DNA of 64,000 nucleotides. Source: Thermosynechococcus sichuanensis E542 (GTDB taxonomy: Bacteria; Cyanobacteriota; Cyanobacteriia; Thermosynechococcales; Thermosynechococcaceae). Location: contig NZ_CP032152.1 of assembly GCF_003555505.1 (NCBI RefSeq), positions 248,001-312,000 on the forward strand, read 5' to 3'. Below the pieces are notes generated by a model that saw only the letters and a program-made list of their open reading frames with translations, made no database searches and was not told where the DNA came from. A program made the translations under genes and the position numbers. Below, in pieces: positions 2,909-8,329 of the stretch; position 1 is the stretch's first letter; every line of letters starts with the position of its first letter.

Positions 2909-2936
2909 ATTATAACCGTTGGCTGAGCGATCGCAA
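2909..2936 (-). promoter_or_regulatory. Putative sigma70-type promoter for rpsT-tatD
   Basis: On the minus strand TTGCGA (-35, 2931-2936) and a perfect TATAAT (-10, 2909-2914) are separated by 16 bases. The -35 lies in a HIP1 octamer (2927-2934) and the whole element overlaps the end of larB. The expected leader to the rpsT GTG is about 35-40 bases. Predicted from sequence only. Confidence 0.6.
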
Positions 2937-3671
2937 GATCTTGGCCACCAGCATTGCCGCCCCAAAGCCATTGTCAATATTGACGACACCAATGCCGGGG
3001 GCACAGGAGTTGAGCATTGTCAGTAGCGCTGCTAAACCACCAAAGTTTGCCCCATAGCCAATACTGGTGGGCACCGCAATCACGGGTACTGAGACGAGTC
3101 CCGCCACCACACTGGGCAGTGCCCCCTCCATACCGGCAACCACAATGAGCACGGCCATCTCCTCTAGGCGATCGCGCACACTCAGCAGCCGATGAATGCC
3201 AGCCACCCCCACATCCCAAAACCGCTCAACGCCAAATCCTGAAAGCTGCAACGTCACTGCCGCTTCTTCGGCCACAGGTAAATCCGCTGTACCGGCACAG
3301 ACCAAGCCCACCTGAAGCGGAAACTGCGGCGGCAAAATAGGGGCTGTACTACAAATCCGCGCCTTTTCAAAATAGTGCAGTCCACCGACGCGCGATCGCA
3401 CCACCTCAAACACCTCTGGAGAAATGCGTGTGGCCATCACACAGGGATAGTGGGGACGCATCCGCTCCAGAATTTCGGCAATTTGCTGCGGGGTTTTGCC
3501 GGGACCCCAAATCACCTCTGGAAAGCCAGTGCGCTGCTGCCGCTGGTGATCAATCCGCGCAAAATCACCAATGGGTTCGTAGGCAAGGTGTTGCAGTTGG
3601 CGATAGGCAGTCTCTACACTTAGTTGCCCTTGGGCGATCGCCGTCAAAATTTGCCGCAGTGAATCGGGCAT
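2910..3671 (-). CDS. larB: LarB-like nickel-pincer cofactor synthesis protein (PurE-related carboxylase)
   Basis: In the lactate racemase system LarB carboxylates and hydrolyses nicotinic acid adenine dinucleotide in the first step of nickel-pincer nucleotide synthesis. Many cyanobacteria carry a larB-like gene without an obvious racemase, so the pathway role here is inferred. The 253-residue protein has an N-terminal helical region (to about residue 110) and a C-terminal PurE-like domain. Visible motifs include VCAGTADLPVAEEA, VVAGMEGALPSVVAG and PTSIGYGANFGG. Its ATG directly abuts the TAA of the upstream M50-like gene (stop at 3672-3674, start at 3669-3671), which suggests translational coupling. 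No larC or larE is present in the window. Confidence 0.88.
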   Translation of the reverse strand: MPDSLRQILTAIAQGQLSVETAYRQLQHLAYEPIGDFARIDHQRQQRTGFPEVIWGPGKTPQQIAEILERMRPHYPCVMATRISPEVFEVVRSRVGGLHYFEKARICSTAPILPPQFPLQVGLVCAGTADLPVAEEAAVTLQLSGFGVERFWDVGVAGIHRLLSVRDRLEEMAVLIVVAGMEGALPSVVAGLVSVPVIAVPTSIGYGANFGGLAALLTMLNSCAPGIGVVNIDNGFGAAMLVAKILRSLSQRL

Positions 3672-5138
3672 TTAGCCTCCAATTCCCAACCGACCGGCTA
3701 GCCCTGGTGCCATGGGGATCAAGGTGGCCGCCATCAAGAACAACAGCAGCAGACCCAGACCGGCACGGGTGTCATCGGGTTCGGTAATCTCATCCAGGCT
3801 GGGCTGATCCACATCCCGCTGCAATAGTAGGATCACCAACGCCCAATACAAGGCCAAGGGGTTGACAATCGCCACCAAGCCCAAGACCACAAGGGTAATA
3901 ATTGTTAGTCGCTTGGCGGTTTTTGTGCCGTAAATGGCTTGAATAATGCGTCCGCCATCCAATTGCCCTGCTGGCATCAAGTTCAAGGCAGTCATGATCA
4001 AGCCCAGCCAGCCCAAAATGACAAAGGGATGCACCATCACTACTTCGCTTTGCAACTGCTGCCCCAAAAAGAGCTTGGCGATCGTCCCCACCAAAATCGA
4101 GCCTTGGAAAAAGAGGGTGGGCACCTCTAAACCCTGACTCGTAGGCGAGAGAACAAGGCCAATGCCCAATAGGAGTAGAGAAACACCACCAGCGGCGATC
4201 GCCCCCGCCGCACCAATGTCAAAGAGTTGACTGCGATTGGCAAGGAAGGATTCAATGCGGGTCATGGCACCAAACGTCCCCAACTGCCACGCCGGCAAAA
4301 AGATGGGCGGTCCCAAGCGTGCCTGATAGCGTTTGGCCATTAACCAGTGACCGACTTCCCGTATAGCGGCAATGCCAAAGAGACCCACGGCAAAGGGGAG
4401 CGATCGCTGGAAGAGACCAGTGGTTGGATTCCCCAGTAAGCTAAACCCCTGCAAGATGGCACTGGTCTCCAGACAGGTTCCAAGGGTGGCCACCGCCAAG
4501 AACACCGCTGCCAGCTTCTGAAGAGTGCCCGAGCGAATCGGTTCGGTCGTCATTGGCAAAATCACGACCATCGGCTTGCCATCCCCATTGGCCACCAGAA
4601 AGAGGCGATAGCGATCGGGCAAGGCGGCCTGTAGTCGTTCAGTGAGTTGCTGATGCACTACTTTGGCTTCACCCCGCAGATTTCCCGGGCAAATCACACC
4701 CCCCTTATAGGGAATGTAGTCAGTGGCGAAGTAGGTATCCACGCTAAAGATACTTTGAATCGCTTGCAGGTCTTCAGCAGGGAGGCTGGGGCGTGCGGCA
4801 GGCTGGGCTGGGGTTGTCTGTTCTGTGGTGGCTTGCTCCAGTTCCGAACGGCCAGAGGGGGCAGAGGGTAGGGGCAGTTCGGCGGTGGCTGCCAGCGATC
4901 GCAACCAACGGCCAAGGGCAATATAGGCCACAATCGAGAACACCAGACCAAAGAGCACGGCAGCAAAATTAATCCCAATCCCAAAGCTAAGGCTGCCAAA
5001 CACCACGAGCCAAGGGAGCATCAGGACAAGGGTTTGCAGCCAAGCCACAATTCCCAGCTTGCCGTAGGGCAGGTTACGATACAGTCCCCACGCCAGTAGG
5101 GCGATCGCTCCCGCCAATAGGCCTACCGTAATCATCAT
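3672..5138 (-). CDS. M50/site-2-protease-like membrane protein (EGY-like) with altered zinc motif
   Basis: A 488-residue polytopic membrane protein of the cyanobacterial/plastid EGY-like M50 family, which performs intramembrane proteolysis. Two N-terminal helices (to about residue 75) precede a Pro/Thr/Gln-rich linker (90-120), a soluble domain (120-200) and a C-terminal membrane core. The second active-site motif, NLMPAGQLDGG (386-396, D394), is present. The first motif reads R260-E-V-G-H264 instead of HExxH, so one zinc ligand is replaced by Arg (codon CGG). It may be a pseudoprotease or use altered metal chemistry. The start ATG has a strong GGGAGGT ribosome-binding site. It is the first gene of a probable operon with larB. 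Confidence 0.82.
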   Translation of the reverse strand: MMITVGLLAGAIALLAWGLYRNLPYGKLGIVAWLQTLVLMLPWLVVFGSLSFGIGINFAAVLFGLVFSIVAYIALGRWLRSLAATAELPLPSAPSGRSELEQATTEQTTPAQPAARPSLPAEDLQAIQSIFSVDTYFATDYIPYKGGVICPGNLRGEAKVVHQQLTERLQAALPDRYRLFLVANGDGKPMVVILPMTTEPIRSGTLQKLAAVFLAVATLGTCLETSAILQGFSLLGNPTTGLFQRSLPFAVGLFGIAAIREVGHWLMAKRYQARLGPPIFLPAWQLGTFGAMTRIESFLANRSQLFDIGAAGAIAAGGVSLLLLGIGLVLSPTSQGLEVPTLFFQGSILVGTIAKLFLGQQLQSEVVMVHPFVILGWLGLIMTALNLMPAGQLDGGRIIQAIYGTKTAKRLTIITLVVLGLVAIVNPLALYWALVILLLQRDVDQPSLDEITEPDDTRAGLGLLLLFLMAATLIPMAPGLAGRLGIGG

Positions 5139-5163: not shown

Positions 5164-7092
5164 TTAGCGCATGGCCATGGTTGTCAGTTGGGTCAGGACT
5201 TGACTGGCACGCTCTGTAAATTGCTGCATACCATTGGCATCAAAGCCCCGCTGCGACATTAAGGCCAGATCGTAGATATACTGACACAGCTTTTCGACCA
5301 ATGCACCCGTTTCTGAAGTGCCACTGGTTTGAATAATCGTGCCTTGGCTGAGGGTGAGCAGATTTTGCACCAAGGGATGGGCGGTATTCACAACGAGGAT
5401 ATGCTCCTCTGGCAACTGGGCATTGGGTTGCTGCTGCATCATTGCCATCATCTCCTGCATCCGCCGACTGGTTTCCGGCAACAGGATCATTGCTGGGGGA
5501 GCATCTGCCTTGAGGGCTTCGGTGCGAATCGTCAGCTTGGGCTTTTTCAGCACGGATTCAAAGAGGGATTTGATCTGCTCACTGCGGGTTTTCTTCGTGG
5601 TGGGATCCACCAGTTCGCTCTCTTTGTTTTTGTCAATGAGCGTCTCATCCAATTCCGCATCCACCCGCAGGAATTTAACATCCTTGTAGTTCTGCTCTAG
5701 CCACGGCACAAAGTGGGTATCAATGAAGCTGTCCATAAAGAGGACTTCAATGCCTTGGCTTTTCAGCAGTTGCACGTAGGTGGCTTGGTTGACCTCATCG
5801 GTGCAGTAATAGACGCGATTGCCTTGGCGCTCTTTGTTGCGCTCGAGGTATTCCTTGAGGGTGGTGTAGGTTTTGCCATCCACTTGGATACCCCCCTCGC
5901 TGGCCCAAACATCTTCGCTGTCGTTAGCGGTCAGTTCAGCAGTGGTGCGGTAGATGAGAATGTCCTCCACCTGCTTTTTGAATTTTTCGTCATTGATGGA
6001 GCCGAATTTGACAAAGGTGCCCAGGTCTTGCCAAGAGCGCACGTAGGCAGCGGGGTCTTCGCGGTATAGCTCCTTCAGGCGATCGCCCACCTTTTTGGCA
6101 ATGTAGTCCGCAATTTTGCGCACCGTGCGATCGTTTTGGAGGAAACTGCGGGACACATTGAGGGGAATGTCGCTACTGTCAATCACCCCCCGCAGCGGCA
6201 GCAAAAAGCGCGGAATGACCTCTTCACAGTTGTCGCTGACAAAGACTTGATTGCAGTAGAGCTTAATTTGCCCCTTAGTGACATCAATATCGGGGCGCAG
6301 CTTTGGAAAATAGAGAATCCCATTCACCACAAAGGGATAGTCGGTATTGAGGTGTACCCACAGCAGGGGGTCTTCTTGGAAGGGATAGAGATAGCGATAA
6401 AACTCTAGATAGTCCTCTTTGCTGAGGCTATTGGAGGCACTCTTCCACGGGGCAATTTGCTTGTTGATTTGCTCGCCCTCGAGCTTAATCGGCACGGGCA
6501 AGAAGTCACAGTACTTGCGGATGAGTTCACGAATGCGCCCCGGCTCTAGATACTCCAATTCACTGTCTTGGAGCGTCAGGGTGACAGTTGTGCCAACAGT
6601 GGTGCGCTGGCCATCGGAGAGGGTAAATTCGGTGGAGCCGTCACAGGTCCAATGCACGGGGACAGCCCCCTCGCGGTAGGAGAGGGTATCAATTTCCACC
6701 CGATCGGCCACCATAAAGGCGGAGTAAAACCCCAAACCAAAGTGGCCAATAATAGCGTTTTCCCCTTCCCCTTTGTATTTTTGAACAAATTCCTCGGCAC
6801 TAGAAAAAGCTACTTGGGTAATGTACTTCTTCACTTCCTCGGCGGTCATGCCAATGCCGTTGTCGGCGATCGCTAGCTTTTTGTTTTCTTTGTCAATCGT
6901 GATCGTCACTTCTGGGTGATCCACATCGCCGCTATATTCCCCAGAACGTGCCACCATCCGCAGTTTTTGGATAGCATCCACGGCGTTGGAGACCAGTTCC
7001 CGCAGGAAAATCTCATGATCGGAGTAGAGCCACTTTTTAATAATTGGAAAAATATTCTCAGTGTGGATTGAAATGGTTCCCTGTTCCAACAT
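5164..7092 (-). CDS. htpG: Hsp90 chaperone HtpG
   Basis: Cytosolic ATP-dependent dimeric chaperone, linked in cyanobacteria to heat, high-light and oxidative stress survival and to phycobilisome or tetrapyrrole proteins. The start is set at ATG 7090-7092, giving 642 residues and the family opening MLEQGTISIHTE. An in-frame extension to 7203 would run into hemW and is not conserved in type. The GHKL ATPase domain shows LVSNAVDAIQKL, DNGIGM and GHFGLGFYSAFMVAD. The middle domain contains DIPLNVSRSFLQ, and the C-terminal dimerisation region follows. The hemW stop lies 37 bases upstream, so cotranscription is possible. No heat-shock operator such as CIRCE was recognised in that gap. Confidence 0.96.
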   Translation of the reverse strand: MLEQGTISIHTENIFPIIKKWLYSDHEIFLRELVSNAVDAIQKLRMVARSGEYSGDVDHPEVTITIDKENKKLAIADNGIGMTAEEVKKYITQVAFSSAEEFVQKYKGEGENAIIGHFGLGFYSAFMVADRVEIDTLSYREGAVPVHWTCDGSTEFTLSDGQRTTVGTTVTLTLQDSELEYLEPGRIRELIRKYCDFLPVPIKLEGEQINKQIAPWKSASNSLSKEDYLEFYRYLYPFQEDPLLWVHLNTDYPFVVNGILYFPKLRPDIDVTKGQIKLYCNQVFVSDNCEEVIPRFLLPLRGVIDSSDIPLNVSRSFLQNDRTVRKIADYIAKKVGDRLKELYREDPAAYVRSWQDLGTFVKFGSINDEKFKKQVEDILIYRTTAELTANDSEDVWASEGGIQVDGKTYTTLKEYLERNKERQGNRVYYCTDEVNQATYVQLLKSQGIEVLFMDSFIDTHFVPWLEQNYKDVKFLRVDAELDETLIDKNKESELVDPTTKKTRSEQIKSLFESVLKKPKLTIRTEALKADAPPAMILLPETSRRMQEMMAMMQQQPNAQLPEEHILVVNTAHPLVQNLLTLSQGTIIQTSGTSETGALVEKLCQYIYDLALMSQRGFDANGMQQFTERASQVLTQLTTMAMR

Positions 7093-7129
7093 GATGCTTC
7101 CCGTGAGTGTATTCTTGGTCAGACAACCT

Positions 7130-8329
7130 CTAGTGTATCGGTAGGGGTTGCCCTTCCTGTTGGTGGAAAACCGATCCCTCCAAGGCCTCCCAAAGGGTGA
7201 CAATGACGTGATTAGCCACGAGAAATCCTGCTGGCTGTGTCAAGTGCAGGCGATCGCCGGTCAAACAAAGCCTCTCTGGGGACACTTTTGCCGCTGCTGC
7301 TTGTAGTGCTTCAACCCAAGACCTAGGAAATTCAGCCGCCAAAGCAGTGAAAGAGAGGCCATCTTTGAGGCGCAAGCCCAGCATCAGGGTTTCCAACCAG
7401 CGCTCCCACAGGGAATCGGGATTCACTTGGTTCAGACCGGCGGGTAGGGTTTGCAGCCATTGATAGTATTCACGGCGGGTACGCGGACGGCTGAAACGGC
7501 GATGCCCTAGATAACTAGTGGTGCCCATGCCAAAGCCATAGTAGGGTTGATTGCGCCAATAAACTTGATTGTGACGGCAGGCGAACCCCGGTCGGGCATA
7601 GTTAGAAATTTCGTAGTGATCGTAGCCCGCTGCGGTTAACATTTCGTGACCTAGGTGATAGGCAGCGGCGGCCTGCTCTTGGGTGGGGAGGGGGGCTGCT
7701 TCGGGTTGATAGCGTTTGCTGAAGACGGTTTTTGGCTCAATGATCAGGTCATAAATAGATAAATGCCTTGGGTTGAGGGCGATCGCTCGCTCTAGGGCAA
7801 ATTGCCAGTCCGCTAAGGATTGTTGCGGTAAGCCTGAAATGAGATCCATGCTCCAATTTTCTACCCCCGCCCTATCAATCATTGCAACTGCCCCCTCAAC
7901 ATCAGCGACATTGTGACTACGGCCACAGACCCGCAATAGCTCATCGTCAAAGGCTTGTACACCTAAGCTGACGCGATTCACCCCTACTTTGAGATAGCCC
8001 TGCAATTGTTCTAGGTCAAATGTTCCCGGATCCATTTCCATGGAAATTTCTGCTCCTAAGGCAATCCCGATCTGGCGATCGAGGACTTCCAGCAGTTGGC
8101 CAATGTATTGAGGCGGGACTAGAGACGGTGTTCCCCCCCCAAAAAAGATCGTTTGGAGCGGGAGCGGCTCAGCAGGGGTTTGGGCAATTTCTTGACACAG
8201 CGCAGCCACATACTCTTGGATGAGCGATTCTGCCAGTGTCGGAGACTCCCCCACCACCGTAATCGGAAAGTCACAGTAGAAGCAGCGGCGCCGACAAAAG
8301 GGCAGATGAATGTATGCGGCTGTAGTCAT
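7130..8329 (-). CDS. hemW: HemW-type radical SAM protein (heme chaperone/HemN-like)
   Basis: Radical SAM protein of the HemN/HemW family. HemW members bind heme and hand it to client proteins, while true HemN oxidises coproporphyrinogen III without oxygen. The 399 residues start at ATG 8327-8329. The cluster motif is C12-x3-C16-x2-C19 close to the N-terminus (HLPFCRRRCFYC), followed by FFGGGTPS and EMDPGTF. The compact length and the lack of a long N-terminal extension favour HemW over HemN, but the sequence alone cannot prove it. The upstream secreted-protein gene stops 7 bases before the start, so the two are probably cotranscribed, with htpG next. Confidence 0.88.
   Translation of the reverse strand: MTTAAYIHLPFCRRRCFYCDFPITVVGESPTLAESLIQEYVAALCQEIAQTPAEPLPLQTIFFGGGTPSLVPPQYIGQLLEVLDRQIGIALGAEISMEMDPGTFDLEQLQGYLKVGVNRVSLGVQAFDDELLRVCGRSHNVADVEGAVAMIDRAGVENWSMDLISGLPQQSLADWQFALERAIALNPRHLSIYDLIIEPKTVFSKRYQPEAAPLPTQEQAAAAYHLGHEMLTAAGYDHYEISNYARPGFACRHNQVYWRNQPYYGFGMGTTSYLGHRRFSRPRTRREYYQWLQTLPAGLNQVNPDSLWERWLETLMLGLRLKDGLSFTALAAEFPRSWVEALQAAAAKVSPERLCLTGDRLHLTQPAGFLVANHVIVTLWEALEGSVFHQQEGQPLPIH

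Follow-up and report, generated by a model that had tools for sequence, protein, structure and literature searches.

A site-2 protease homologue with arginine in place of the first HExxH histidine is a probable pseudoprotease fixed in Thermosynechococcus

We analysed a window of 64,000 nucleotides from the cyanobacterium Thermosynechococcus sichuanensis E542 (RefSeq assembly GCF_003555505.1, contig NZ_CP032152.1, positions 248,001 to 312,000 of the forward strand); the window is this whole stretch, and positions are counted from its first letter. On the minus strand at 3672-5138 lies a gene for a homologue of the site-2 proteases (S2Ps). The encoded protein, here called P0001, matches the Pfam family Peptidase_M50 (PF02163) over amino acids 249-408 with 52 bits (cut-off 27.2) and an E-value of 7.6e-14. 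NCBIfam returned no family for P0001 at E-values up to 1, and none for its paralogue EGY-B at E-values up to 0.001. The gene and its features are as follows.

3672..5138, minus strand: EGY-type S2P homologue (EGY-A, P0001), predicted pseudoprotease; 488 amino acids plus stop, PF02163
4674..4685, minus strand: GNLR motif, amino acids 152-155, in the soluble domain (homologue alignment)
4545..4790, minus strand: soluble alpha/beta domain, amino acids 117-198, between transmembrane helices (model comparison)
4359..4361, minus strand: codon CGG, Arg260 where HExxH has its first His (sequence, homologue and 3b4r alignment)
4347..4358, minus strand: E261-V-G-H264, retained remainder of HExxH (sequence and homologue alignment)
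3915..4394, minus strand: S2P core, Pfam Peptidase_M50, amino acids 249-408 (Pfam profile and model comparison)
4200..4202, minus strand: codon 313, Ala replacing a conserved Pro (alignment of EGY-A rows)
3957..3959, minus strand: codon of Asp394 (LDGG motif), the counterpart of the motif Asp in 3b4r (sequence and profile alignment)

Residues 260-264 of P0001 read R-E-V-G-H and not HExxH, and Asp394 stands in an intact LDG/NPDG-type motif (NLMPAGQLDGG), which confirms what the original prediction had read at this place. In a profile of 71 homologues aligned to the S2P of M. jannaschii (3b4r), position 260 falls on the first His of the 3b4r motif HELGH and D394 on the Asp of its MDGG, both of them zinc ligands in 3b4r. 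According to the prediction, a different HExxH nearby would mean a misassigned site; no HExxH was found anywhere in P0001, whose His residues number three in total (162, 264 and 370). This absence and the profile alignment of R260 with the first His of the 3b4r motif rule out a misassigned motif. It had further been argued that two base changes from His make a read error unlikely. The codon CGG is indeed two changes from CAC or CAT, but this argument alone is insufficient, since a single transition turns CAY into CGY, from which CGG differs silently.

Arg260 was present in 11/11 Thermosynechococcus genomes searched, encoded by CGG in each of them. It was also found in three records of metagenome-assembled genomes named Thermosynechococcus, from which the genus (g1) takes its name here; with equal scores and identities, these records appear to duplicate three of the 11. 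Close homologues, which could have carried HExxH, therefore all have Arg and not His; outside Thermosynechococcus, most homologues have HExxH. The EGY-A frame is free of internal stops in 11/11 genomes. Ratios of nonsynonymous to synonymous substitution rates (dN/dS) were computed pairwise against the window gene and ranged from 0.050 to 0.099 (10 comparisons), with 0.058-0.096 for EGY-B, 0.042-0.062 for HtpG and 0.019-0.086 for LarB. By segment, the ratio was lowest for amino acids 441-488 (0.028), was 0.049 for amino acids 341-400 and was highest in the linker (0.242, amino acids 76-115). Purifying selection acts on the EGY-A gene as it does on the intact paralogue EGY-B, and because Arg260 is fixed in 11/11 genomes of a gene selected in this way (dN/dS 0.05-0.10), the exchange is neither an error nor decay.

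Besides R260, eight positions that are conserved in >90% of intact rows of the homologue alignment differ in all 11 Thermosynechococcus genomes (132, 136, 257, 300, 313, 316, 405 and 444). The H, C, D, E, K or R residues common to all 11 genomes and found in <15% of intact rows are R97, E99, K145, C150, R168, R245, R260, E338, E365 and D444. A scan of the 11 genomes for a compensating ligand thus found no gained His, and the sole gained Cys (Cys150) lies in the soluble domain, with none in the membrane core. The nearest genome outside the genus (G018) reads HDLGH, that is, with both zinc His present and Glu replaced by Asp, and the same was found in a genome of another family (G069); this would fit a loss of catalysis earlier than that of the zinc site.

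An AlphaFold2 model of P0001 had a predicted local distance difference test score (pLDDT) of 81.7 and a predicted template modelling score (pTM) of 0.72. VIA-align, which re-scores Foldseek's own candidates, gave S2Ps in all six top rows: 3b4r with a Z of 12.9 (4.8 Å, 191 residues), SpoIVFB with 11.8 and 10.1, and RseP of E. coli and A. aeolicus with 8.5, 8.5 and 8.1. P0001 is accordingly computed to have an S2P-type core fold. The soluble domain of the model is similar to domains of XcpY, PulM and PilO (Z 5.9-7.1), a similarity that may merely reflect a common arrangement. A GNLR motif ahead of the S2P core is a mark of EGY proteins, and P0001 has this motif, which is kept in 11/11 Thermosynechococcus genomes and in 145/148 of the EGY-A rows that carry Asp394 and the two zinc His.

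PF02163 identified four M50 proteins in the T. sichuanensis genome (one found as two pieces): P0001, EGY-B (34% identity to P0001, HELGH), RseP (HEWGH) and a protein of 439 amino acids with HELGH and LDGG. Since the other three retain HExxH, P0001 is the only M50 copy of the genome without the motif. EGY-B with HExxH was read in 11/11 Thermosynechococcus genomes. In one of these genomes (G021; L063, L064; C1:1149036-1150045) the RseP-type S2P is spread over two open frames, which would fit a frameshift or an interruption; it is a single frame in the other 10.

Among cyanobacterial relatives, EGY-A sequences were read from 192 genomes or records, and EGY-B sequences from 128. This set had been cleared of open frames of <=200 amino acids, of matches over <180 query residues and of frames resembling RseP, and a single row was kept for each paralogue of a genome. 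One truncated EGY-A row (L337) was removed ahead of the tree counts (320 to 319), which use 191 EGY-A and 128 EGY-B rows. In the FastTree tree the 191 EGY-A rows, P0001 among them, are separate from the 128 EGY-B rows, which all lie on one side. HExxH together with the Asp was found in 146/192 EGY-A and 78/128 EGY-B sequences. One or both zinc His are missing in 91/319 rows, namely 43/191 EGY-A and 48/128 EGY-B; these are not frequencies in nature, because the sample is non-random, EGY-A coming from a family search, from an even draw of the class and from family f25, and EGY-B having been fetched partly where EGY-A had lost the motif and partly for family f16. The losses correspond to 14 events by Fitch parsimony (8 in EGY-A and 6 in EGY-B) or to 20 all-lost clades (8 and 12), a second count made because midpoint rooting set the EGY-B root in a lost clade and which presumes no return of a lost His. 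Earlier, smaller sets (174 rows; 83 rows) gave 10 changes between intact and lost. Among the lost states of EGY-A are RExGH in Thermosynechococcus, RELAM and similar in family f24, RELAH with Ser in f12, GEIAR in f34, YEGGR in f15, and YELGR, NEIGR and TEIAH with Asn in f25. In family f24, of which 38 genomes were collected, the motif is lost in every copy read (19/19 EGY-A and 18/18 EGY-B).

Some loci depart from these patterns in other ways. In the EGY-B of three genomes (G099, G109 and G083; L305, L306 and L292) the Asp of LDG is replaced by Ser or Gly, with HExxH intact in G109 and G083, which is another route of zinc-site loss. One genome of 82% completeness (G010; L030/L200) has a single match to P0001, an EGY-B with RELSY, and no EGY-A was seen in it. 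In G001 and G003 of genus g2 (L026, L027) the N-terminal part and the core of EGY-A are in different frames, which may stem from a frameshift or from a split of the gene in the variable linker. The EGY-A match of G058 (L319; C1:1654703-1655995) lies inside an open frame given as 3271 amino acids long, perhaps owing to a masked stretch or a fusion.

Loss of the zinc His is accompanied by a change at a second site. Pro313 is present in 146/148 EGY-A rows (which include two HDxxH rows) and 77/78 EGY-B rows with both zinc His and Asp, and it is missing in 76/91 His-lost versus 4/228 His-intact rows. Over 15 supported independent pairs, P313 changed the same way as the His site in a mean of 6.4 pairs and the opposite way in 0.3, with no difference in 8.3 (median p 0.031, range 0.008-0.22). 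P313 is presumably close to the cleft, going by the S2P motifs, and its joint change with the His site argues for a real loss of the catalytic cleft and not for a tolerated single change.

In most lost clades a basic residue appears in the motif. Each of the 20 all-lost clades was given its majority state, and in 16 of them a basic residue (15 Arg, 1 Lys) stands at 260, 261 or 264. The acid at 394 is kept in 15/16 clades with a basic residue and lost in 3/4 without one (Fisher p 0.013); counted by genus and paralogue, the figures are 30/1/1/3 (p 0.0024), with relatedness not removed. Position 260 is not His in 16 clades, and Arg occupies it in 10/16 of these (p 0.005 against an expectation of 0.29, a rough assumed one-step mutation expectation with transitions weighted fourfold, and p 0.058 against 0.40). 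The association of the basic residue with the acid, written down as a prediction beforehand, held in 6/6 His-lost rows among 41 new rows outside the 319. In the EGY-B of family f16, Glu261 and often His264 drift (RSFGQ, RGIGH, RAAGH, RSLGS) while Arg260 and Asp394 stay, which on the aligned residues is what a salt bridge would leave.

The exchange being fixed across a genus, together with repeated loss elsewhere while most of the protein is kept, suggests that the protein has stopped cutting but is still of use. We therefore consider it probable that P0001 is a lineage-fixed pseudoprotease of the S2P family that has Arg260 for the first zinc His and works without cutting. P0001 would still have the membrane fold of the S2Ps, its LDG motif and the soluble domain with GNLR, and catalytic zinc is not expected in it, because Arg260 sits in place of the first zinc-binding His. 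We infer that, within the membrane, the guanidinium group of Arg260 most likely forms a pair with Asp394, and possibly also with Glu261, as a structural stand-in for the zinc of active relatives, and that the non-cutting protein may act as a binding, chaperoning or stabilising partner in the membrane. Since the zinc His was lost about 14-20 times in cyanobacterial EGY-type S2Ps, mostly with an incoming basic residue, the branch has probably long had a function other than cutting. The inactive regulator, one of the options named in the original prediction, is favoured by the fixation, by purifying selection as in the intact paralogue, by the co-loss of P313 and by the lack of a gained His or Cys in the membrane core. 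A broader proposal strikes us as evenly balanced between right and wrong: arginine, at either zinc-His position, would have taken over from zinc as counter-ion to the buried aspartate of LDG, independently some 10-14 times across the two paralogues; the resulting membrane proteins would be free of zinc and have a conserved function other than cutting, and lineages such as f24 would be left without any catalytically competent EGY-type S2P, so that cutting would not be the core job of the branch.

Several observations weigh against these interpretations. Foldseek alone found no match in the PDB at an E-value of 0.001 or better, the best being RseP (9j82) at 0.16, and by VIA-align's own note a Z of 12.9 is at the edge of the chance range for helical models. 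The surroundings of the motif (amino acids 241-285) have a dN/dS of 0.125, which is still low but above all segments other than the linker. Glu261 is retained in 43/43 EGY-A rows without His260, which would be unexpected in a dead active site, could mean residual chemistry, and is left unexplained by a salt bridge alone. For the arginine-acid rule, the 14 Fitch events (10/1/1/2) give a p of 0.093, only 3-4 independent pairs are available, and RELAH with Ser (f12) and HEGGQ with Asp (G095) are exceptions. The 6/6 new rows count as one lineage at most, because all six come from the already sampled family f5. The rule was found post hoc, and for this reason we hold it at about an even chance.

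The retained Glu261 is what would be expected if P0001 were still a metalloprotease, with a re-arranged site in which Glu261, His264 and Asp394, helped by Arg260, hold a metal and allow slow or conditional cutting, and His264 and Asp394 are indeed present in Thermosynechococcus. However, His264 is itself replaced (by M, R, Q, I, L or W) in 25/43 lost EGY-A rows, P313 is lost along with the His, and the Thermosynechococcus membrane core has gained no His or Cys, Cys150 being in the soluble domain; we regard such a site as unlikely. P0001 might instead be a dominant-negative partner of active EGY-B, or shield EGY-B substrates, in the manner of iRhoms, which is a special form of the non-cutting pseudoprotease, so that the two confidences overlap. 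By analogy this would suit the presence of an HExxH-bearing EGY-B in 11/11 Thermosynechococcus genomes, and pseudoproteases of another intramembrane family behave in this way according to one paper (PMC3149277), but family f24, in which all EGY-A and EGY-B copies read have lost the motif, has no active EGY partner, and we hold this form to be unlikely.

If the protease had lost its substrate and were now decaying under relaxed selection, this could account for the eight further conserved positions changed throughout the genus and for the raised dN/dS around the motif. The low ratio of the whole gene, of amino acids 341-400 and above all of the C-terminus, and the absence of an in-frame stop from all 11 genomes, make decay very improbable; a pseudogene reading is likewise disfavoured by dN/dS. 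A sequencing or assembly error at one codon is already refuted by CGG in 11/11 genomes and can practically be dismissed.

The S2P gene is flanked by two genes on the same strand.

5164..7203, minus strand: htpG (Hsp90), upstream neighbour of the S2P gene, 25-base gap (open reading frame and profile)
2910..3671, minus strand: larB (nickel pincer cofactor biosynthesis), starting right at the end of the S2P stop (open reading frame list and loci of relatives)

Both htpG and larB flank the EGY-A gene in 11/11 Thermosynechococcus genomes and in G018. In G016, whose EGY-A is intact (HELGH), htpG alone was seen beside EGY-A within the 1.5 kb of flank examined, and among loci of other families with comparable flanks both genes were absent from the flanks of EGY-A. 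The TTG-started htpG frame (5164-7203) is probably overlong, as the HtpG profile begins at amino acid 39, close to an ATG, and the start likely lies about there.

EGY-type S2Ps of plants and cyanobacteria have been studied as proteases. If the members that lack a zinc His bind no zinc and are still selected, cutting is probably not what the branch has in common, and the phenotype of a knockout could have a cause other than missing cleavage; arginine-for-zinc would also be a simple sequence rule for spotting inactive members. Synechocystis sp. PCC 6803 has four S2Ps, among them Slr0643 and Sll0862, and Slr0643 is essential for acid acclimation, as stated in passages of two papers (PMC4284730; PMC12014562), one of which describes the direct targets of Synechocystis S2Ps as poorly understood (PMC12014562). 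Our guess is that Slr0643 and Sll0862 correspond to EGY-A and EGY-B. Published Synechocystis 6803 primers had no match in the collected loci at <=2 mismatches (four end bases prefiltered) and none in G202, and the slr0643 primer matched 0/38 f24 genomes at <=1 mismatch. Two of the Synechocystis 6803 primers matched single loci of f16 and f1 with up to 3 mismatches, which we take as chance.

By model comparison the core fold of P0001 is that of M. jannaschii S2P (3b4r), B. subtilis SpoIVFB, and E. coli and A. aeolicus RseP. P0001 differs from 3b4r in the first motif residue, which is His (HELGH) in 3b4r and Arg in P0001, and the GNLR domain of P0001 lies outside the matched part. iRhoms and FtsHi belong to protease families other than that of P0001. 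According to two papers, iRhoms (rhomboid pseudoproteases) and FtsHi are conserved relatives of membrane proteases that are presumed inactive (PMC3149277; PMC8197885), and P0001 resembles them in being conserved and presumably inactive. Among the titles listed by searches of an open library, mostly the top-ranked ones, there was no paper on cyanobacterial S2P pseudoproteases; the query most directly on this subject gave a single paper, which concerns malaria proteases. The nearest functional precedent is plant EGY3, a chloroplast member of the S2P family without HExxH that passages of two papers describe as non-proteolytic and as stabilising other chloroplast proteins (PMC10978774; PMC9355673), and that one paper calls the sole pseudoenzyme of the family. 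P0001 is like EGY3 in being a conserved S2P homologue without HExxH, as EGY3 is defined in a passage of PMC10978774, and the comparison appears apt as a functional analogy. Unlike EGY3, the cyanobacterial losses are bacterial and have recurred, and most of them show a basic residue together with a kept Asp. An S2P pseudoprotease as such is thus known from EGY3; what is possibly new here is its recurrent occurrence in bacteria, with a possible substitution of arginine for zinc.
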